From an uncultured Mycoplasmatota bacterium (GTDB taxonomy: Bacteria > Bacillota_I > Bacilli_A > RF39 > UBA660), in contig CAOJYR010000016.1 of NCBI GenBank assembly GCA_948465965.1, forward strand, positions 1 to 33,013: 33,013 nt of DNA, given 5' to 3'. A program made the translations under genes and the position numbers. The notes under the pieces were generated by a model, which worked only from the letters and a program-made list of their open reading frames with translations, ran no database searches and had not been told where the DNA came from. Shown here piece by piece: positions 10,591 to 21,017 of the stretch. Position 1 is the first letter of the stretch, and every line of letters starts with the position of its first letter.

Positions 10591-11421
10591 TTAAATATCA
10601 CCTATAAGTTTATTTTTATCATCTTTTTCTAGCTCTTTTAATGACTTTTTAGGCGTTGGTAAATCTTCTGGCATTGTTCCACCAAGTCTTTTAATAGTAT
10701 TCCTAACTTCTTGTCCTACTTCATAATGAGTTTCTTTAGCTTTTCTTTCACCTTGTATATTATCTCTTTTTAATTTTTGTTCGGTTTGAGAAATTCTAAA
10801 TAGATTTGCAATTAATTCATCACTACCCATATTGTCCAAAATATCTTCTCTATATCTTAATTCTTTTCTTTTAGCAATATCATCTGCCGTTTCACCATTA
10901 TATAATCCTTTATACCCAGCATTATGAAACTCTCCAAAATTTTTAACACCCGCTTTTCTAGCTGCTTGATTTAAAGAATAATTTCCTTTTTTAGTCAAAC
11001 TTCTTTGATAAAATCTTTTTTCATCCTCAGTTAACAAGGAATATTCCTTTTCGGTTAATTCTTGGCGTCTTGTCTGAATTGCAAAATAAGTTTGGCCTAA
11101 AGCAACAACTTCTTTTCTAGGATCTGAGTTTTGCACTATTAAATAGCAAGCATATCTTGACAACTTATAATCTTCTATATTTCTTGAAGTTTTTGAACCT
11201 ATATTGACCATTTTGCCGGCGTCGGTAAAATGATCATAAACCATTTTGTTACTTAATTCACAGGCTGATTTTGCTTTCTCTATTACACTAGCAAAATTAC
11301 TCCATTTTGAATATTCAAGTGTACTCATTAATTCACGGGCGAGCCAATATTCATTACCATATCCATCAATATGCTTAATACTTTCAAATATTGTTTCATT
11401 ATATTCTTTAATTTCGTTCAT
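10591..11421 (-). CDS. dinD: DinD-like DNA damage-inducible protein
   Basis: The 276-residue protein matches the DinD/BRO-related layout. An N-terminal BRO-like domain has GNEYWLARELMSTLEYSKWSNF (about residues 18-39), then KMVNIGSKTSRNIEDYKLSRYACYLIVQNSDP (about 83-114). The C-terminal half is helical and charged, ending KELEKDDKNKLIGDI. E. coli DinD is SOS-induced and inhibits RecA strand exchange; many homologs sit on mobile elements. I chose ATG 11421 with GGGGGA about 9 bases before it. It is next to uvrB but in its own unit with an extended -10 promoter; no LexA-type operator was recognised. Confidence 0.85.
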   Translation of the reverse strand: MNEIKEYNETIFESIKHIDGYGNEYWLARELMSTLEYSKWSNFASVIEKAKSACELSNKMVYDHFTDAGKMVNIGSKTSRNIEDYKLSRYACYLIVQNSDPRKEVVALGQTYFAIQTRRQELTEKEYSLLTEDEKRFYQRSLTKKGNYSLNQAARKAGVKNFGEFHNAGYKGLYNGETADDIAKRKELRYREDILDNMGSDELIANLFRISQTEQKLKRDNIQGERKAKETHYEVGQEVRNTIKRLGGTMPEDLPTPKKSLKELEKDDKNKLIGDI

Positions 11422-11446
11422 TTTATTAATTCCCCCTTCTAACAAG

Positions 11447-11455
11447 ATTATAACA
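11447..11455 (-). promoter_or_regulatory. Extended -10 promoter for dinD-like gene
   Basis: The minus strand reads TGTTATAAT, 26 bases before the ATG at 11421, downstream of a terminator. No good -35 and no GAAC-N4-GTTC type SOS operator is visible around it. Confidence 0.65.
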
Positions 11456-11651
11456 TAACTTTTACCATTTTTTTAAAGCTTATATAATCTATTATTAGAA
11501 GAACTTTAGAGAAAAGTTTTAATTTTTCTTAGGATTATGATTGATTTTTATTTAGCTTATATTTTCATTTTAATTTTCCTACTGGAAATTTAATGTTGGT
11601 TATATTAATATTCTTAAAAACAAACAAGTTAATGAGTTTATAAGTATTATG

Positions 11652-11688
11652 AAAAAGAAAAATACTAATATATGATTACTATTAGTAT
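11652..11688 (-). terminator. Terminator after the 11716-12546 gene
   Basis: On the minus strand an 8-bp stem (arms 11662-11669 and 11681-11688, 11-base loop) precedes TTTTTC and more Ts. It lies 28 bases after the stop of the orphan gene. The rest of the 294-base gap 11422-11715 holds the dinD promoter and AT-rich sequence with no other signal I can support. Confidence 0.75.
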
Positions 11689-11715
11689 GCTTTAATTATG
11701 AATATAGTATTGAAG

Positions 11716-12546
11716 TTATTGTTTCGATTTTTTATACACACGCTCTTCCTTACTTTTACTGTCTAAAACAGGAAAGATATGGAAGGGACTTTTTTTATCA
11801 TCTGTATATATGAACGCTGTATCTTTATACCAGAAGCATTCATAATTAATTCTAGTTTTTTGTCTAGAAATTAATCTATATACTTGTCTGTTTGCCCTAG
11901 TAGCTACAACAATATCCCAATTATCCATACACATTTCATTACAACATAAACAATATTTTTCTAAATCTCTACAAAATGAATTCTCATAAATCCCTTGTGG
12001 TAATAGATCCCAAAATTCTAAACCTAAATCATTAAGTGCAAAAATACTTAGTAATTCTTCTTCATGCAGCAACCTAGCTTTTTCATCAAATTTTTTTATA
12101 TACCTTTCAATCTCTTCTTTTTTTCTCCATCCATCAGGAAGATCATTATAGCGTGGAATCCAAAATGGTTCTGGTATCTCATTTTTAGTTACTTTATTTT
12201 TTCCTAATGTTGGATATTCAAAGTCCTGTTCTGATAAAAGGGACGTATCGATGTATGCAATTTCAGTACCTTGATCATTCGTTGCATACCATAATCCATA
12301 ATCAGCAAGGCGTAAATTTTTATACCCTTTTGGAATATACTTCGGTTTTTCTAGTTTGTATGGGGTTATAACATAGTTTGGTCTATTATCTCCCCATTCG
12401 TAGTTTATTCCGCTTATTTGAAAGTTCTTTGGAATGGGTAATTTATATATAGGTTCATTATTTCCTTTATTTTTTAACACAATTGTGTTATCTACTAATT
12501 CACTATATATTAAATCTGAATTATAATTAAAGTTAATTGCTGACAT
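11716..12546 (-). CDS. Orphan protein with a cysteine cluster
   Basis: I do not recognise this 276-residue protein. It is soluble-looking, with no signal peptide or membrane segment. It is tyrosine- and proline-rich in the first 120 residues (NYVITPYKLEKPKYIPKGYK near 56-75), has a helical charged middle (about residues 135-170), then five cysteines in CRDLEKYCLCCNEMC (about 192-206), suggesting a metal site, and a C-terminal beta-rich part. The gene starts 54 bases past the stop of the methyltransferase-fold gene and may be its operon partner. The ATG at 12546 has AAGGAG 8 bases upstream. No function is assigned. Confidence 0.72.
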   Translation of the reverse strand: MSAINFNYNSDLIYSELVDNTIVLKNKGNNEPIYKLPIPKNFQISGINYEWGDNRPNYVITPYKLEKPKYIPKGYKNLRLADYGLWYATNDQGTEIAYIDTSLLSEQDFEYPTLGKNKVTKNEIPEPFWIPRYNDLPDGWRKKEEIERYIKKFDEKARLLHEEELLSIFALNDLGLEFWDLLPQGIYENSFCRDLEKYCLCCNEMCMDNWDIVVATRANRQVYRLISRQKTRINYECFWYKDTAFIYTDDKKSPFHIFPVLDSKSKEERVYKKSKQ

Positions 12547-12600
12547 ACGATTTTCTCCTTTGTGATTATTTAAATATTCTTAGGGATACTATTAATAAAT

Positions 12601-13692
12601 TTATAATCTTGGCATTCTAAATGGAGCATCAAGTGTTTTCATCTTTGCCATACTTTTTGCTGTTATAAAATCTATTTGCTCTTTCATTTCTTTCGTTTTT
12701 TCCTTATTATTTAAATACCAATTTAACATGACTTCTCTGAAATTATCTAGTTTAATCATATCTCTTATATCCTCAATGTTATGTATTTTTCTTCCTTTAA
12801 GAATATCATCTGCTATCATCCTATTATAAATCATATCAAGATTATATCCTGTTATACTTGCTAAAAGACTAGATTGTATTGCTTCTTTTAATTCAGGCTC
12901 TAGCCAATAGGAAAAATCTACATTATCATACTTACTCTCAATTTCTAAACATTCTAAGTAGAGAGGTAGCATGTCTGGAGTATCTCTCCAAATATCAACA
13001 TTTATATAATCATATTCAGATAAATCTTCATTTTTAAGGTAGGCAATCGCATTTCCTTTAATGATATTTACTTTATCTTTGTGTTCAAATTGAGGTAGGA
13101 TTTCTTCAGTAAATAATGCTATAACATCTTCATTTAATTCTACAATATCAATGGAGGTAATACTATCTTTTAAGGATAACATATATGCAGCATATCCCAT
13201 TCCTAATCCACACAACAATACATTTCCAGATGCTTCGTTAATAAATGGAGCAAAGCTTTTTATTTCAAAAGGCTCTACAGTCATCCAACTTACTGCAGTA
13301 TCCCCTTCTACAATTCCCGGGAATCTTAAATTATCTTCACAATAGAAAAATGTATTTGTTTGTTCAAATGTATCTATATCTCTACTTTTTTCTAGGTATT
13401 TCGTTACTAATTCTCTTTTTATTATTCTTCTTTTATTTAGGGAAAAGTTATTTTTTTGTGCTCTTGGTATAGAGATATTTTGAAGATAAGCATTATTCAT
13501 GACTTCTTGTTTTTCTATTTTGACTAATTTTAGGTTATTATCCTTTATAGCATTTTTGAATTTATAAAAGTCACTAACGGTAATCATTCCACTATCAACC
13601 ATACCATCAAATTTTAATATAAGTGACTCTTTCATTAATTGATCTATTATTGCTTCTTTTACTTTATTTAAATTACTTTTATTTTTTGCCAT
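12601..13692 (-). CDS. Methyltransferase-fold (spermidine synthase-like) protein
   Basis: The 363-residue protein contains a class I SAM-dependent methyltransferase Rossmann core: motif I VLLCGLGMGYAAYML (near residue 160), an acidic strand end SIDIVELNED (motif II) that would hold the ribose hydroxyls, and DYINVDIW at the strand-4 position. This arrangement resembles spermidine synthase-like folds. The N-terminal 150 residues and C-terminal 80 residues are not recognised. The substrate is unknown and activity is unproven. The ATG has AAGGGGTG 7 bases before it and a good promoter 28 bases upstream (13720-13748). The metallophosphoesterase remnant lies directly upstream. Confidence 0.78.
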   Translation of the reverse strand: MAKNKSNLNKVKEAIIDQLMKESLILKFDGMVDSGMITVSDFYKFKNAIKDNNLKLVKIEKQEVMNNAYLQNISIPRAQKNNFSLNKRRIIKRELVTKYLEKSRDIDTFEQTNTFFYCEDNLRFPGIVEGDTAVSWMTVEPFEIKSFAPFINEASGNVLLCGLGMGYAAYMLSLKDSITSIDIVELNEDVIALFTEEILPQFEHKDKVNIIKGNAIAYLKNEDLSEYDYINVDIWRDTPDMLPLYLECLEIESKYDNVDFSYWLEPELKEAIQSSLLASITGYNLDMIYNRMIADDILKGRKIHNIEDIRDMIKLDNFREVMLNWYLNNKEKTKEMKEQIDFITAKSMAKMKTLDAPFRMPRL

Positions 13693-13719
13693 ATGATCGC
13701 ACCCCTTTAAACGTGCTTT

Positions 13720-13748
13720 ATTATATCATAAATTGGCTCTTTTGTAAA
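13720..13748 (-). promoter_or_regulatory. Promoter of the methyltransferase-fold gene
   Basis: The minus strand has a -35 TTTACA (13743-13748), a 17-base spacer and -10 TATAAT (13720-13725), also preceded by TGA as an extended -10 (TGATATAAT). It lies 28 bases before the ATG at 13692, and it overlaps the degenerated end of the upstream remnant gene. This is one of the best promoters of the window. Confidence 0.85.
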
Positions 13749-13761
13749 TCAATATCTTTTT

Positions 13762-13896
13762 TGGCACAATAATGATATTATCACCTAGGGAATATATCTT
13801 AGTAATTTCTAGCCTTCTTATATCTTCTAAGGCAGATTGGGTGAGTTCTAATAATGCATGTGAGTCTGTAAAAATTGCAATTTTTATTTGTGATTG
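13762..13896 (-). pseudogene. Metallophosphoesterase remnant (N-terminal fragment)
   Basis: Translation of the minus strand gives KIAIFTDSHALLELTQSALE (starting at 13884) followed by a short helix and IYSLGDNIIIVP. The DSH motif and, about 35 residues later, GDN are the first two metal-binding motifs of calcineurin-like metallophosphoesterases; the usual reading after GDN is IGxGPNP, which is changed here to IIIVP. The rest of the enzyme is missing: the frame stops at 13726 inside the promoter of the next gene. The frame has no ATG start in this stretch and a TAA at 13900-13902. It is a decayed gene fragment, probably once part of this gene row. It is too short to show as a long open frame. 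Confidence 0.75.
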
Positions 13897-13927
13897 GTTT
13901 TAATTATTCGTATATAATACTACACCT

Positions 13928-14350
13928 TTAAAATTTTATTCTTTTATCATTGCCTATACTAATATCTAAATAGTCACCTTGTATATCTATATCATTTCTT
14001 ATTTTTAAATCGGGAATATGATTAGTCATTCTATAAAATAAATTAATTAGGTTTTCTGTTTTTAGTTTACTAATTACATCTTGTTTATCAACAATATGAT
14101 TATACCATTTTAGGCTATGTTTATATTCCTTTAATCTATATTTTTTTCTAGATTCACTTAAATATTTTAAGTCCTCCAGCGCGTCACTATTCCATTTTTT
14201 AGGAAAGTTTTCTTTTTCTCTTTCACTCAATAATTCATGATAGCGATAGGATAGAACCTGTAGTATTGGAACTTTTATTTTTGTAATGTTGTGCTCTTTT
14301 AAGAGATTTATGAATAAAAGCATTGAATATACTTGATTGGGATGTACATT
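13928..14350 (-). pseudogene. C-terminal part of a frameshifted orphan gene
   Basis: This frame starts as an isolated ATG at 14323 (131 residues), but that ATG has no ribosome binding site. Upstream of it, the same frame continues back through VHPNQVYS to about 14350, joining smoothly to the preceding gene's reading frame. The product is a charged, tyrosine-rich protein (PILQVLSYRYHELLSEREKE, then KHSLKWYNHIVDK) with no recognised domain. The best reading is one ancestral gene of about 400 residues split by loss of one base near 14350. Whether this is a true mutation or a sequencing artefact is open. Confidence 0.75.
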
Positions 14351-15087
14351 GGATTATCTATTCCTTTATTTAGTTGGTATAGCATTCTTTCTACTTTATT
14401 TATTTTTGTTGAATTACAATCATTTTGAATTCCATATATGTAACAGGTATTATCATCTGCTATATCATAATGAATATGTGGTAGAGAGTGAATATTTCCC
14501 TCTTTATCCTTGATTTTAAAACTCATGTTTCTACTAGTTTCATCCCAGGTTGTATTTAAATTACTTTTTATATAAACATCGTAGTCATAAAGATTAGTAT
14601 ACTTTTGTTCAAACTTATAGCTATCAAACTTATCATTCTTAATAAATTGCAGTTGTCTATTTAAAAATTTCTCTACATTGTTAAAATCTGTTACACCCAT
14701 ACGAAGCCATATCCTACGCATAACTAGGATTGCAAGAGCTCGTGCGCTATAATGATCTCCATATACATTATATAGGCGTACTAAATTATTCGTAATATCT
14801 GTTAAATAATTAAAAAAGTCATACTCATCCTTTACTATGATTGTCGGAACAGACTCATCTGCATTATTTTCCGGTCTTAATCTTTCTATATCTTCCTCGT
14901 GAATATTTGGTGTCCAGCCATCTTTTATGGTAAATGGGTGTTTCATTACAGTTTCGAACAAATCAAATGCTTCATTTGGAAAGATAATATTGAAATTTGG
15001 CGTTTCTGTTTCTTTTTTTATTTCAAAACTTGTATGGTTTACAAACAGCTCAACAATTTCTTTAAATGTTACTTTATTATCGTTCAA
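14308..15087 (-). pseudogene. N-terminal part of a frameshifted orphan gene
   Basis: This 259-residue frame starts at a TTG (15087) with AAGGA about 10 bases upstream. I recognise no domain. It contains a helical stretch YFDYLTDITNN-like (NYLTDITNNLVRLYNVYGDH, about residues 93-112), VMRRIWLRMG, and a beta-rich end with SLPHIHYDIADDNTCYIYGI. The tail after YQLNKGIDN (PMYIPIKYIQCFYS) reads out of frame; in the alternative frame the sequence continues as VHPNQVYSMLLFINLL into the next frame. The ancestral protein probably acted as one chain of about 400 residues. A partial product may still be made. Confidence 0.7.
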
Positions 15088-15267
15088 TATAATTCATTCC
15101 TTATCTTAATTTTTAGGTCTACTTTAATCCTTATTATTATAATATCTTTTCTTTACCTTTTTCCAAATATGACTTGCACTTTCAAGGGGGTTCTTCTGTT
15201 CTTATGGTCATATCTTCCTTTTTTATTGTCTTTATAGATTGTGAATAGTCTACATTCATTTATCCTG

Positions 15268-15774
15268 TTATTCTTTAACAAAATATTTATATACTTTATT
15301 ATTCCCTATTTCTCTTATTGTTGGTTTATCATAGAAGTCATCTAAATCAAATTCTTTAAGTAATTTTTCTCTACTTGTACTTGTTGTATATAAACTTACT
15401 AATACTCCTATGGTATCTAGTTCACAGTTATCTGTTTTAAGTATGAATTCTAAGTCTCTATTTTTTCTTTTTTTGATTTCTATTTTGAAGTTATCTTTCG
15501 ATTCATGTTCCCATACTCCATCGTTATTAACAGAGATAGTAACATTACCAATTTCTCCCTCATGTGTTCTTTCTTGTAATTCATCTAATGATTTAATTCC
15601 TTCTAGATCAATTTTTGCTTCTATTGCTCCACTTACTACATTCTCGCCAAATAAGGCAGGATAAAATTCTGTTGTTATTATTAGTGTAATAATATTTTTT
15701 TCTTTATACATTCTTTGTCTTATATTTACTTCAGTAAATTTCTCTTTAAATTCTATATCATTTATTTTTAACAT
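15268..15774 (-). CDS. Orphan beta-rich protein
   Basis: I do not recognise this 168-residue protein. Alternating hydrophobic strands (NIITLIITTEFYP near residues 27-39, VVSGAIEAKIDLEG near 46-59, GNVTISVNNDGVWEH near 76-90, and FKIEIKKRKNRDLEFILKT near 96-114) suggest a beta-sandwich-like core; the end is helical and acidic (FDLDDFYDK). There is no signal peptide. GAGGAGTG lies 7 bases before the ATG. It is divergent from the GNAT gene, and a 16-base inverted repeat lies in the shared gap. It is separated from the frameshifted gene by about 180 bases. No function is assigned. Confidence 0.7.
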   Translation of the reverse strand: MLKINDIEFKEKFTEVNIRQRMYKEKNIITLIITTEFYPALFGENVVSGAIEAKIDLEGIKSLDELQERTHEGEIGNVTISVNNDGVWEHESKDNFKIEIKKRKNRDLEFILKTDNCELDTIGVLVSLYTTSTSREKLLKEFDLDDFYDKPTIREIGNNKVYKYFVKE

Positions 15775-15801
15775 ATTAACACTCCTCTTTTAATTAGCTA
15801 T

Positions 15802-15817
15802 GTACTATAGTCAGTAC
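15802..15817. promoter_or_regulatory. Inverted repeat between divergent genes
   Basis: GTACT and AGTAC flank six bases (ATAGTC), with ACTATAGT as an inner palindrome, 28 bases from the ATG at 15774. It sits in the leader or promoter region of the 15268-15774 gene. It could be an operator, or a short hairpin, since six Ts follow it on the plus strand. No regulator can be named. Confidence 0.35.
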
Positions 15818-15869
15818 TTTTTTATTTATAATACTACATTAAAACTTATATGGCAAGACTTGATAGTTT

Positions 15870-15878
15870 TGGTATAAT
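15870..15878 (+). promoter_or_regulatory. Extended -10 promoter for the GNAT gene
   Basis: The plus strand reads TGGTATAAT, a consensus extended -10, 20 bases before ATG 15898. The start would fall almost at the AAGGAG ribosome binding site (15885-15890), giving a very short leader. No good -35 is seen. Confidence 0.65.
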
Positions 15879-15897
15879 ATATATAAGGAGAAATATT

Positions 15898-16359
15898 ATG
15901 GATATTAGAAGTCTTAATGATGAAGAAGTTGATGCTGCTTTAGAATTCTCTTTTCATCAACTAATTGATACTACTCAATTCTTTAAATTTAAGGATTATT
16001 ATGATTTGGCATTAAAAAAATATAAAGAATTGGCAAGAAATTATCATCAAGAGAATAACACTCTATTTATTGGATACTATTTAGAGGATAAATTGGTTGG
16101 ATTATTAGAGATTAACGATTGCTATATTAACCAGATTGCAGTAGATAGGAATTTTAGAAATCAGGGAATAGGGTATAATTTATTTTTTTTTGCTATTCGT
16201 AATAAAAAAGATGGTGAGATCGTTTGTTTAGATGCAGCAATGAATATTGTCCATTATTATGAAAAATGGGGATTTGTAATAAATGGAGAGTTGAATAAGA
16301 AAACGAATTCTATTAAGATGAAATATACAGTTTCTAATAAAAATAAAAGCTATTGGTAG
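15898..16359 (+). CDS. GNAT family N-acetyltransferase
   Basis: This 153-residue protein has the GNAT fold pattern: a central strand IGYYLEDKLVGLLEI (about residues 58-72), strand 4 CYINQIAVDRNFRNQGIGYNLFFFA with the acetyl-CoA pyrophosphate loop R-N-Q-G-I-G (about residues 87-92), and the late motif MNIVHYYEKWGF typical of the family. The acceptor substrate is not evident. ATG 15898 has AAGGAG 7 bases before it; the longer frame that begins at 15850 would begin upstream of the promoter. It is one of only two plus-strand genes, ending in a hairpin shared with the convergent ABC gene. Confidence 0.88.
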   Translation: MDIRSLNDEEVDAALEFSFHQLIDTTQFFKFKDYYDLALKKYKELARNYHQENNTLFIGYYLEDKLVGLLEINDCYINQIAVDRNFRNQGIGYNLFFFAIRNKKDGEIVCLDAAMNIVHYYEKWGFVINGELNKKTNSIKMKYTVSNKNKSYW

Positions 16360-16382
16360 AAAGTTATATACCATTAGCTTTT
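16346..16382. terminator. Bidirectional terminator between GNAT and ABC genes
   Basis: A stem of 7 + 5 base pairs with one T-T mismatch (arms 16346-16358 and 16369-16381) has a T run on each strand: TTTT on the plus side, and TTTTATTTTT on the minus side. The left arm overlaps the last codons of the GNAT gene. It serves both converging genes. Confidence 0.75.
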
Positions 16383-16385
16383 CAT

Positions 16386-18104
16386 TTATACTTTTTCATT
16401 AAATAAATCTATGTAATATTTATTATTTTTTATTAATTGTTTATGGTTAGCTATACCCACAACTCTACCATTTTCTAGAACTACTAATTTATCTGCTTTT
16501 TTCATTAAATCTTTATTATGTGTAATTATGATGATTGTGTGATCTTTTTTTAATTCTTTTAAAAGATCTATTATTTGTTTTGTTGTTTTTGGATCAAGGG
16601 ATGAGGTTACTTCATCTAAAAGAATTATTTCTGCTTTAGTAAGAAGGGTTCTAGCAAGCGATAACAACTGTTTTTGTCCACCACTAATATTTGTGGCATC
16701 TTCTTTCAAAATAGTATTATAACCCTTTGGGAGGGACATAATAAATTTATGGATGCCCACTCTTTTGCAGGCTTTTATTTGATTGTCTTTGTTACTATCT
16801 ACTAGAGATAAATTATCTTTTATACTCATATTAAATATAAATGTTTTTTGATTTACTATGGATACATTAGAGCTATGGACTTCTTTTTTATAGTTATAAA
16901 TATTTATATTATCTATTAATATTTCACCTTTATCTGGTTTATATAATCTAAGTAGTAAATTAAATAGGGTTGTTTTTCCAGCACCTGTATGACCGACTAT
17001 AGTAGTTATTTCCTGGGGTTCAGCTTTGAAAGAAACGTTATTTAAGGTTTGATTATCTTTATACTTAAAACAGACATTTTTAAATTCTAGTCTTCCGATA
17101 ATATCATCATTATCTTCGAATCCTCTTATACTTAACGACTTATAATTTATAATATCGCTTATTCTATACATTGAAATTGCTTCTTCTTTGATACTCATAT
17201 TATTATTCATAATTGTTGATGCTGTTTCTTTTACTTTTTCATAATAAGATATAAGTAACAAAAATACTGTTAATGTTATTTTGTTATTTATCATTAGTAT
17301 AGTCAAGAATATATACATTAAAATTTTTCCAAGTTGAATTATTCCTGATCCTACTGTTTGTTTTAGAAAATAACTTTTTCTCTTATTAAAATAGCTTTTC
17401 TCCCAAGAAGCTCTATAGTTTTTAAATTTATTATTCAACTTGCTTGATAAATTTAGGCTCTTTACATCTTTTAATCCGTGTAAGAGTTCAGATAATAGTC
17501 CTGTTAATTTATCAGCATAATATCTTTGCTTTTTAAAATAGAATGCGTTTTTAGTATTACAAATATTTGCAAAATAACAGTAGACTATGTTTATTAATAT
17601 AACATATATGCCTATTAGCATACTTTGCTTTATAAAAACTATAATAATTATCACTAATTTTATACAATTATTTATATTTGATATTAAAAATGATGGGAGT
17701 TCCGCTATATTTATTAAATCCATATTACAGGTATTTACTATTTTTCCAGAAGTTAATTTATTATTATATTCTTCATCAAAGTTATAAATACTATTTATTA
17801 CTCTTTTATGTAAATTAACATAACATTTCTTAAAATAACTAGCATAGTAAAAATAGTCTCCATATAAAAATATATTATGTATTAAATATAATAAAGCGAG
17901 TAGACCTATCATTATAAAGGTTTCATTATATAAACTATTGGTTAAATTTTCAATTATTGTTGCGGCTACTAAGGGTATTAATAGACTACTAATCTCTGTT
18001 AGGATATCAAAAATAATAAATAAAATTAGGTTTTTATCTTTTATACTAATTAGGTTAGAATAATCTTTCATTATTTTAAAATTTTCTTTTATCATATACA
18101 TCAC
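16386..18104 (-). CDS. ABC exporter, fused membrane and ATPase domains
   Basis: The 572-residue protein is a half-transporter: six hydrophobic segments in residues 20-300 (for example NLILFIIFDILTEISSLLIPL and CIKLVIIIIVF), then an ATPase with Walker A GHTGAGKTTLF (near 370), signature ISGGQKQLL, Walker B IILLDEVTSSLD and the switch His in IIITHNKDL. It likely exports peptides, lipids or drugs and must dimerise; no partner subunit is adjacent. The start is uncertain: GTG 18104, ATG 18101 and ATG 18095 all lack a good ribosome binding site. It lies 65 bases after an AraC-type gene, so regulation by that protein is likely. Confidence 0.9.
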   Translation of the reverse strand: MMYMIKENFKIMKDYSNLISIKDKNLILFIIFDILTEISSLLIPLVAATIIENLTNSLYNETFIMIGLLALLYLIHNIFLYGDYFYYASYFKKCYVNLHKRVINSIYNFDEEYNNKLTSGKIVNTCNMDLINIAELPSFLISNINNCIKLVIIIIVFIKQSMLIGIYVILINIVYCYFANICNTKNAFYFKKQRYYADKLTGLLSELLHGLKDVKSLNLSSKLNNKFKNYRASWEKSYFNKRKSYFLKQTVGSGIIQLGKILMYIFLTILMINNKITLTVFLLLISYYEKVKETASTIMNNNMSIKEEAISMYRISDIINYKSLSIRGFEDNDDIIGRLEFKNVCFKYKDNQTLNNVSFKAEPQEITTIVGHTGAGKTTLFNLLLRLYKPDKGEILIDNINIYNYKKEVHSSNVSIVNQKTFIFNMSIKDNLSLVDSNKDNQIKACKRVGIHKFIMSLPKGYNTILKEDATNISGGQKQLLSLARTLLTKAEIILLDEVTSSLDPKTTKQIIDLLKELKKDHTIIIITHNKDLMKKADKLVVLENGRVVGIANHKQLIKNNKYYIDLFNEKV

Positions 18105-18169
18105 ATTATCATTATAAAATGATTTTATTTTTTGTTTTTGATAATTTGAATATTGGATTTGTTAAAAGT

Positions 18170-18964
18170 CTATTTTATTGACACATAAATATAACAGTGA
18201 TCTTTTTCATACAATTCAAAATCATCATTTGGACATAAACTATAATTTGTGGAAGGAAACCATCTGCGATAAATATTTTCTTGTATCTTTACAATATCTT
18301 TTTGTTCTCTAGAATTTAATTGAAATACAGCATATTTCCCGCCCTTTATTGTATGTGTTTCTAAATTTTCATCTTTATGTTTAGATCCTACAAAATAGTG
18401 ATATGTATCCTCTACTTTTGTAGAAATTCCATACATACCATGTTCCTCGAACTTTTTATGGTAACCATTTTTTCTCATTTTGAAATAAAGTTTTCTTATC
18501 AAATATAAGTAATTTTGTCTATCTTCTGATGATACAGAAAAACAATATATTTTTATTGGTTCTATACTTTTTATTTCATAATCAAAGTCTAGATCTATAG
18601 AATTATTTTTATCAAATTCTATTATAGGGAAAATTTTATGTTTTTTTGTGCTTGTTCTGCACGCCTTTGGAGTTATTCCAAAAAGATTTTTAAATGCTCT
18701 TGTGAATGAGGCTTGTGAGTTATATTGGTATTTTATGGCAATATCTATTATTTTTGTATTTGTGGTATTTAATTCTTCAAAAGCCTTACTCAGTCTTCTT
18801 TTTTTAATGTATTCAGTCAAAGTCATATTGGTTAAAAATGTAAATATTCTTTGTAGAATAAAATCATTAACACCTATTATTTTTCCTAATTCTTTATAAT
18901 CTATATTGGTGTCTAGATGGTTTTCAATATATTCTATCATTTTATTTAAACTTTCTATATACAT
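18170..18964 (-). CDS. AraC-type regulator with GyrI-like effector domain
   Basis: The 264-residue protein has two helix-turn-helix motifs at the N-terminus: DYKELGKIIGVNDFILQRIF, and IDIAIKYQYNSQASFTRAFK, which ends in FGITPKACR (about residues 90-105). The C-terminal part (about residues 130-264) has a GyrI-like pattern with TYHYFVGS and GGKYAVFQL plus YRRWFPSTNY, as in Rob/BltR-type drug sensors. It likely binds a small molecule and activates the ABC exporter gene just downstream. I choose ATG 18964 because AGGAG is 8 bases before it; the upstream GTG overlaps the ribosome binding site. Only 45 bases separate it from the HipA-like gene's stop. Confidence 0.9.
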   Translation of the reverse strand: MYIESLNKMIEYIENHLDTNIDYKELGKIIGVNDFILQRIFTFLTNMTLTEYIKKRRLSKAFEELNTTNTKIIDIAIKYQYNSQASFTRAFKNLFGITPKACRTSTKKHKIFPIIEFDKNNSIDLDFDYEIKSIEPIKIYCFSVSSEDRQNYLYLIRKLYFKMRKNGYHKKFEEHGMYGISTKVEDTYHYFVGSKHKDENLETHTIKGGKYAVFQLNSREQKDIVKIQENIYRRWFPSTNYSLCPNDDFELYEKDHCYIYVSIK

Positions 18965-19009
18965 CTTATTCACTCCTATTAAAGTCTCGTTTTAAGTTTG
19001 CTTTCATTT

Positions 19010-20119
19010 TTATTTTACTTTTACTTTATTTTTATCTAATCTTTTTGTAAGTTCATTTTTTAAGGTCATTGCGACTTCCAAAACTTCTTCTTGTATTAAT
19101 TTGCTAATCATATCTAAATCAATGTCCTTTTTAGGCGTGTTTTTTTCAGATTGCTCTTTGGCTTTTATTGGATTGTTTTCTTTGTAAAGGGCAATTCCTG
19201 CTTCAAAATCATTACTATTAAATGGTTTTATAAAATTATTATCTTTTAGGTTTATTGGATTTTTCTTCAAGTCATTAATAAATAGTTCTAATCTTTCTAA
19301 GAAGTCTAGTGTTACATTTTCATATCTTTTTACAATAATATTTAAATTTTCTCGAAGAGGATAAAATTTAGAAGTTAGCCCTGATTCTTCAACCATATGG
19401 ATAAGCAATTTATCTATCTCATCTAACACTTCAGTATCTGTCAATCTAATGATAAATTCATTAAATGTTTTTTTGTGTTCCTCTAAATCATCTAAAAACA
19501 TAAACATAGTGGAAAACTCATGATCAATAGGTGGGGCTAGGCTAGTTAGTTCTTTATCCTTTGAAATAAAATTGACATTTTCATAATGGAAGTTTTGATC
19601 TGCTCTTAAAACAGAAAATAGTATCTGTTTTGCCAGATTCTCTCCTAGATTTCTATTTTCTTTTATTAATTTTGAGTCAAATATATTTGTATAATCATAT
19701 ATCTTCATACAATAGTTTTTATATTCATTTATATCTACTTCTGAGTCAGGATTGTCTCTAAAGTGTTCAAACAAATTAACTAGTTTTTCATCCTTGTTTA
19801 TAATTGAGGGAACTATAGTTCCTTCATTATGATACTTTGGTACATATTCATCATAATGACTACATATGGCTAATCTATATACTGGGGCTTTTTTATCAAA
19901 ATACTCTTGAATGATATTTGACCAAAATAGCTCACTATAGGCAAAGAATGGTGTTGAATAAGGTTTTGTTTTAGAAAGTGGTTTAAATATTTCTTCTTTA
20001 CCATCTTTTAAAAATACAGGAAAGAATTTTTGACTTTTAATTTTTCCTTGTGCTTCTACTTCTAAGTTTCTATTTCTTTTATTATAGTTATAGTATTCTA
20101 CTTTATAGTTAAAGTTCAT
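19010..20119 (-). CDS. HipA-like kinase-fold protein
   Basis: The 369-residue protein has the HipA/CtkA-like kinase pattern: an ATP-binding lysine in EEIFKP (Lys46), a glutamate in FAYSELFW (Glu63) that could pair with it, a catalytic-loop-like LRADQNFHYENVNFI (Asp174, Asn181 or Asn183) and a metal-binding APPIDHE (Asp199). The C-terminal 120 residues are helical and charged and unrecognised. HipA phosphorylates tRNA synthetases in toxin-antitoxin systems; here no HipB-like antitoxin is adjacent, so a toxin role is not shown. I start it at ATG 20119, 10-11 bases after AAGGA; an upstream GTG is too close to that site. It is divergent from the other kinase-like gene. Confidence 0.72.
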   Translation of the reverse strand: MNFNYKVEYYNYNKRNRNLEVEAQGKIKSQKFFPVFLKDGKEEIFKPLSKTKPYSTPFFAYSELFWSNIIQEYFDKKAPVYRLAICSHYDEYVPKYHNEGTIVPSIINKDEKLVNLFEHFRDNPDSEVDINEYKNYCMKIYDYTNIFDSKLIKENRNLGENLAKQILFSVLRADQNFHYENVNFISKDKELTSLAPPIDHEFSTMFMFLDDLEEHKKTFNEFIIRLTDTEVLDEIDKLLIHMVEESGLTSKFYPLRENLNIIVKRYENVTLDFLERLELFINDLKKNPINLKDNNFIKPFNSNDFEAGIALYKENNPIKAKEQSEKNTPKKDIDLDMISKLIQEEVLEVAMTLKNELTKRLDKNKVKVK

Positions 20120-20175
20120 CGTTATCACTTTCCTTATATATAAATTTATTATGGTAAGAGCTGTTTTTGTTATTT

Positions 20176-20205
20176 ATTATAATACATTTAACTTATATAA
20201 GTAAA
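20176..20205 (-). promoter_or_regulatory. Promoter of the HipA-like gene
   Basis: On the minus strand TTTACT (20200-20205), an 18-base spacer and TATAAT (20176-20181) form a moderate promoter, about 57 bases before the ATG at 20119. Confidence 0.5.
20191..20202. promoter_or_regulatory. Perfect 12-base palindrome in the divergent gap
   Basis: ACTTATATAAGT is a perfect palindrome inside the gap between the two kinase-like genes, overlapping the -35 of the HipA-like promoter. It could be an operator for a dimeric regulator, but AT-rich palindromes also arise by chance. Confidence 0.35.
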
Positions 20206-20222
20206 TTAAAGGAGAGTTTTTC

Positions 20223-20250
20223 TTGATTTTTTTCAATTTTATGTTATGAT
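20223..20250 (+). promoter_or_regulatory. Promoter of the plus-strand kinase-like gene
   Basis: TTGATT (20223-20228), a 16-base spacer and TATGAT (20245-20250), with TG one base before the -10, make an extended promoter. AGGGGTG (20263-20269) is the ribosome binding site, 7 bases before GTG 20277. Confidence 0.7.
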
Positions 20251-20276
20251 AATGTTCATTTTAGGGGTGTGATGTT

Positions 20277-21017
20277 GTGAAAAGAGAATTTATTAAAAAT
20301 ATTATTATTAATGATGAACTATTTGAGTTAAAAGGTGATCCTATTGGTAGAGGTGAGTTATCTGGTGTTACATATAGATTAAGGAGGGATAATTTAGATT
20401 TAGCAGTTAAATTATATTATCACGAACATCCTTTTGGAGATGATGACAGTTGGTATCCTGATATTCACACTTTGGAATATTTTACTGAAATATCTCATGA
20501 TGTTTATCCTATTCTTTTGAGCCATTATAAAGTAGAAGATGAAAATCATAATTATGTGGGATGTGCCTCTCCTTTTATAGAAGAGACTAGAGGTCCTACG
20601 GGGGATGCTATATGGAATCTGCCAAGGGACTCATTCTTTACTTATTTTTATAAAATATTTGGACAAATTCCTAAGTTAAGTAAGGCAGGAGTAGTTTTAG
20701 ATGATTGGAATATAAACAATATACGTTTAGGAAACCCAGTTAGTTATGAGGAGGGTATATACTGTTTTGATGATAGTAATTATTTTCTTTCTGATGATGT
20801 TAGTAGTAATAATTTAATTGATAATGAATTAATCGAAAATATTTTGTGTGATTATATTGAAGATAAATATTCTTACGATCTGCAGTCTAAGGTTTTGGAG
20901 GGGTTAAAAAGTAAAAGGAATTATATAGACTTTTTGGAAAAAAATAGTTTAGGCTATGCAACTATTGGTGAATTCTTAAATGATTATACTTCATGTTTAA
21001 AGAAAAAATATTATTAA
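20277..21017 (+). CDS. Protein-kinase-like fold protein
   Basis: The 246-residue protein has the outline of a eukaryotic-like (Hanks-type or related) kinase: a glycine-rich loop IGRGELSGVTY (Gly24, 26, 30), the ATP lysine in LAVKLYYHE (Lys45), a catalytic loop VLDDWNINNIRL (Asp142 or 143, Asn147 or 148) and YCFDDSNYF in the place of the DFG motif. The GVV.DD motif replaces the usual HRD. It has no membrane segment or sensor domain and is short for a Ser/Thr kinase, so it may be an aminoglycoside-phosphotransferase-like or atypical kinase. The start is GTG 20277. It is divergent from the HipA-like gene and ends in a bidirectional terminator. Confidence 0.72.
   Translation: MKREFIKNIIINDELFELKGDPIGRGELSGVTYRLRRDNLDLAVKLYYHEHPFGDDDSWYPDIHTLEYFTEISHDVYPILLSHYKVEDENHNYVGCASPFIEETRGPTGDAIWNLPRDSFFTYFYKIFGQIPKLSKAGVVLDDWNINNIRLGNPVSYEEGIYCFDDSNYFLSDDVSSNNLIDNELIENILCDYIEDKYSYDLQSKVLEGLKSKRNYIDFLEKNSLGYATIGEFLNDYTSCLKKKYY

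Follow-up and report, generated by a model that had tools for sequence, protein, structure and literature searches.

The divergent genes A and B are probably neighbours by accident, and gene A belongs to a little-known lineage with a HipA/CtkA shape, whose members always have an Asn where the catalytic Asp would normally stand. This is a distinct, antitoxin-less family whose members are probably atypical phosphotransferases or ATP-binding pseudokinases. Taken as a whole, the account that we favour, with reasonable though limited confidence, is that the two are independent accessory genes, with B a small phosphotransferase and A an orphan HipA/CtkA-fold protein carrying Asn179. Judged from dN/dS values between close pairs (0.07-0.24 for A and 0.17-0.27 for B), both are maintained proteins under purifying selection, and a profile comparison of A with B detected no relationship between them.

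Organisation of the locus

The window, a stretch of 33,013 nucleotides, is contig C16 of a 1.29-Mb genome in 45 contigs, which the titles of homologues place in a Bacilli-like lineage. Both divergent open reading frames described in the initial annotation are present head-to-head, with A at 19010-20128 on the minus strand and B at 20277-21017 on the plus strand. Gene A encodes 372 amino acids from a GTG, or 369 from the ATG at 20119 (codon 4) where the alignment of family homologues begins and which was taken as the start. The intergenic gap measured from this ATG (20120-20276, 22% G+C) has exactly the 157 bases originally given, and 148 when measured from the upstream GTG.

The perfect 12-base palindrome reported in the gap, ACTTATATAAGT (20191-20202), is real and occurs once in the whole window; however, about 0.11 palindromes of this length are expected per 157 bases of the window and one turned up in 12% of the gaps after shuffling (P ~0.12), which places it at chance level. 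Likewise, the gap was said to hold both promoters and promoter-like matches were found for A (TTTACT-18-TATAAT, 20205-20176, minus strand) and for B (TTGATT-16-TATGAT with a TG, 20223-20250, plus strand), but the region contained 17 such sites compared to 14.3 +/- 3.6 in shuffles, which is no excess. The palindrome and the promoter matches were rejected as evidence since neither rose above chance in the shuffles. Promoter cross-talk across the shared gap is possible, a point against independence of the genes.

The absence of an adjacent HipB-type antitoxin gene was confirmed, as the neighbours are a Rob/AraC-type regulator that starts 36 bases after A and an M23 peptidase gene beyond B. The Rob-like AraC regulator (GyrI-like/Cass2 effector domain) and an ABC exporter lie directly 3' of A on the same strand (16386-18973), and the three possibly form one operon.

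Fold and family of gene A

Searches of Pfam, NCBIfam and PDB sequences with A alone returned nothing useful, and the HipA_C family (PF07804) was weakly matched by ten of the 42 family members (best E 0.008). An AlphaFold2 model built on the 42-row family alignment was of high confidence (pLDDT 91.3, pTM 0.90). Foldseek ranked CtkA first for this model (E 1.7e-5), and VIA-align also gave CtkA as the best match (Z 18.9, 271 residues, 3.6 A) followed by HipA, PI4KII, HipT, Fam20 and CotH (Z 11.5-13.3). An hhalign comparison of the A profile with HipA_C proteins of related genomes gave a probability of 89% (E 2.3e-6). These comparison proteins are true relatives of CtkA, HipT and HipA, because their profile matches all three in PDB (2e-36, 1e-13 and 4e-4, respectively); the A family profile (A3) did not match the CtkA sequence there, whereas the canonical HipA_C profile did. 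The predicted fold of A is thus HipA-like, in agreement with the initial annotation.

CtkA, a Ser/Thr kinase of Helicobacter pylori (PDB 3akj, 3akk and 3akl), aligns with A over almost the full length and is, like A, a kinase-fold protein without a linked antitoxin. The two are only 11% identical, the CtkA loop has the canonical form GN-x-DRH-x-x-N where that of A reads D-x-N-[FY]-H-Y-E-N, and nothing suggests secretion of A. Relatives of CtkA at approximately 50% identity have been reported from other gut bacteria (PMC5536186), and A falls far outside that group. With HipA, HipT and the wider Hip kinases (PF07804), A shares the fold and the Lys/Glu/Asn/Asp frame but differs in lacking a linked antitoxin, whether HipB, HipS or another, and in having an Asn at the catalytic Asp position. 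Hip kinases have been curated by four motifs and a usually adjacent antitoxin gene, with HipH and HipL as exceptions (PMC8262856). Features present in A include the HipA-like fold (VIA-align Z 12-13 to HipA and HipT), the Mg-binding Asp and the ATP-binding Lys, while the N-x-D-x-H-x-x-N motif (Asn in 42/42) and an adjacent antitoxin (no family in more than three of 68 flanking proteins) are absent. Despite its fold, A is not classed as a Hip kinase because it lacks both the catalytic motif and the antitoxin neighbour.

Members of the family come from uncultured gut Bacilli and from Lachnospiraceae, Blautia among them, and are under purifying selection with no linked antitoxin. The HipA/CtkA fold thereby gains a lineage whose catalytic loop is re-arranged, and the A proteins of culturable commensals would allow a clean test of whether evolution has turned a HipA fold to new chemistry or to signalling as a pseudokinase. 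A defence library gave only weak matches to A (best PDC-M03A, E 0.001). Two A homologues are interrupted, by an in-frame stop or a broken frame (L035, 6001-7068; L080, 577-1592), which suggests decay of the gene in some genomes. The closest relative seen (71% identity over 96 residues) is fused in frame to a phage-type ORF at the end of an IMG/VR contig (L114, 4147-6288); this is the sole viral-contig match for A and probably an assembly misjoin, so it was set aside. A phage record with an A homologue (MT838063) was also discounted as its genes, which resemble those for LysR, XRE and amidohydrolase proteins, look like a bacterial fragment. Elsewhere in the genome of the window, L125 (G000:C28:1529-1675) codes for another HipA_C-like protein, whose GN-x-DR-x-x-x-N loop looks canonical.

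Catalytic loop and proposed activity of A

The residues Lys46, Asp174 and Asp199 that were first highlighted in A correspond to Lys49, Asp177 and Asp202 in GTG numbering. The motif positions were correct, including Lys49 at the ATP-binding Lys position (19982-19984, minus strand) and Asp202 of D-x-E-F-S at the Mg-binding Asp position (19523-19525, minus strand), each conserved in 42/42 members; however, the second residue is probably not the equivalent of the HipA catalytic Asp, a position that the profile alignment assigns to Asn179 (19592-19594, minus strand), Asn in 42/42. Asp177 (19598-19600, minus strand) lies two residues before it, is Asp in 40/42 and Asn in 2/42 members, and its position is Asn in HipA and CtkA. 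The alignment of the A loop with NxDRHxxN contains no gaps, and the hydrophobic pattern of the helix before the loop is kept; this register is read from profiles rather than from a residue-level superposition. In this alignment Lys49 and Glu66 pair with the conserved Lys and Glu of HipA_C proteins, His181 and Asn184 with the His and Asn of DRHxxN, and Asp202 with the Mg-binding Asp. In the PDB alignments of the HipA_C profile to CtkA and to the HipA_C kinase 7vkb, an Asp stands at the catalytic position. One of the two patterns used in the family scan contained the DxN loop and could have biased the set toward Asn179. A pattern artefact was rejected on the grounds that non-fitting members (DLN, DDN, DAN) recovered by the other pattern keep Asn179, as do the further loci found by profile.

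Protein A would bind ATP-Mg through Lys49, Glu66, Asn184 and Asp202, with Asn179 at the position of the catalytic Asp. An atypical phosphotransferase, to which we give about even chances, was ranked slightly ahead of an ATP-binding pseudokinase, with a Hip-type toxin well behind because no antitoxin is linked. As a pseudokinase, for which the case is appreciable but falls short of even, A would serve as a nucleotide-dependent switch or scaffold after the change from Asp to Asn. The invariance of Asn179 and of the ATP/Mg residues is consistent with this role, and in more than one branch of the tree some members also have Asn at 177, which leaves their loop without any Asp. Among predicted pseudokinases of other kinase-like families, cases are described in which the catalytic Asp is lost while the Asn and the second Asp are kept (PMC9758233). 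The retention of Asp177 in 40/42 members and the invariant loop residues His181 and Glu183 argue against a pseudokinase, as another residue could act as the base. Proteins of the HipA-like fold are in addition known to carry out unusual chemistry. A more specific and rather doubtful reading is that the catalytic Asp and the Asn two positions ahead of it were swapped in the gut Firmicutes family (NxDxH to DxNxH) and that these antitoxin-less proteins perform chemistry other than ordinary protein phosphorylation, such as nucleotide transfer.

It is improbable that A acts as a toxin kinase of the HipA type, with an antitoxin from another locus or with the downstream Rob/AraC-like regulator in that role. 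The HipA-like fold and a helix-turn-helix regulator gene only 36 bases past A would suit such a system, and two Hip kinases, HipH/YjjJ and HipL, have no antitoxin gene next to them (PMC8262856), but the AraC-type gene is not regularly found beside A, the neighbours of A share no common family, and the catalytic motif differs from that of Hip kinases.

Gene B

Gene B (GTG start) encodes a 246-amino-acid protein that was delimited by its ORF, the conservation of homologues and a family profile. On its own it gave nothing useful in Pfam, NCBIfam and PDB sequence searches and matched no Pfam family. The initial description of B as protein-kinase-like is nevertheless borne out at the profile level, as the family profile matches larger proteins carrying PF00069 (Pkinase domain) and nearly all of its PDB matches are protein kinases, each weak (best E 0.017) and with NleH2 among the top. 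The residue set of the protein kinase-like superfamily is present and retained in the nearer homologues (27-39% identity): Lys45 at the ATP-binding position (20409-20411) and the DFG-type Asp165 of FDDSNY (20769-20771), both invariant, and Asp143 (20703-20705) and Asn148 (20718-20720) of the catalytic loop LDDWNINN, both at least 90% conserved; all are on the plus strand. The VxK, D-x4-N and FDD motifs are shared with small protein-kinase-like proteins (PF00069 relatives and NleH-like minimal kinases), from which B differs by matching no Pfam family itself and by a minimal C-lobe of approximately 80 residues after the DFG-type Asp. An AlphaFold2 model from two sequences only was unusable (pLDDT 43) and the fold search made with it uninformative, which leaves sequence as the basis for the putative kinase fold of B. 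With its complete Lys/Asp/Asn/Asp set, B would be a stand-alone small kinase-like enzyme, presumably an ATP-dependent phosphotransferase.

Scans of viral contigs detected no B homologue and the defence library gave no convincing match. Another B-type gene (C33:61-729) is present in the genome of the window, as is a strong PF00069 kinase on C25. B has at least two paralogues in related genomes, and tandem B-type genes are located near spore-germination-like genes in L031 (5611-7092).

Pairing of A and B across genomes

Among 337 genomes of the order, A was present in 17, with a fragment in an eighteenth, and B-type genes in 49. Both occurred in only four, a co-occurrence that was not significant (Fisher p = 0.29), and most genomes with A are without B. 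When the close B subfamily alone was considered, the figure was two of nine, a weak trend (p = 0.07). Fifty A loci were surveyed, the window and 49 others, five of which end their contig at A, and adjacency of A and B was seen in the window and at 0/49 of the others. The upstream neighbour was visible at 45 loci and on the same strand as A at 31 of them, and no Pfam family was common to more than three of the 68 flanking proteins. All three congeners examined lacked A, one of them being only 64% complete. The survey of related genomes for the same divergent pair, which the initial annotation had called for, thus found conserved pairing to be essentially absent, an outcome named there as refuting, and neither the proposed two-kinase unit nor mutual regulation was supported.

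At one further locus, L035, A and B are likewise divergent and lie 4.5 kb apart; a HAD-like gene, an 849-aa gene and a metallophosphatase-like gene intervene, and A carries an in-frame stop. This pair is a point against independence, as the adjacency in the window may descend from an older shared neighbourhood. A module in which one kinase phosphorylates or regulates the other, both being transcribed from a common bidirectional promoter region with the palindrome as its control site, is very unlikely: the head-to-head genes with their short gap, the L035 pair within 5 kb and the trend for close B relatives point toward it, and the lack of adjacency at other A loci, the non-significant overall co-occurrence, the chance-level palindrome and the lack of B in most A genomes point away from it. 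The A-B pairing is of little importance if it is accidental.

A gene-variable zone as the probable source of the adjacency

Under the preferred account of independence, in which neither protein would regulate the other, A and B would be accessory genes of a zone downstream of ftsE-ftsX-M23 that were brought together by loss or insertion, which would give the head-to-head arrangement without a functional link. The blocks that we take, from similarity and in part from profile tests, to be prfB-like/YitT-like/ftsE/ftsX/M23 and uvrB/radical SAM/uvrA are common to relatives, and the stretch between M23 and uvrB is variable. In the window this zone spans 10591-21017 between the two blocks; a BRO-N (phage antirepressor-like) gene (10591-11445) lies within it, as do several genes that match no Pfam family. 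B adjoins M23 or sits one gene away in the window and in G068, G174 and G332. A is found downstream of M23 at three loci (the window, L037 and L039) and, at L041, L043, L045 and L047, between uvrA and the radical-SAM gene. In the sister genome L189, other genes directly follow M23.
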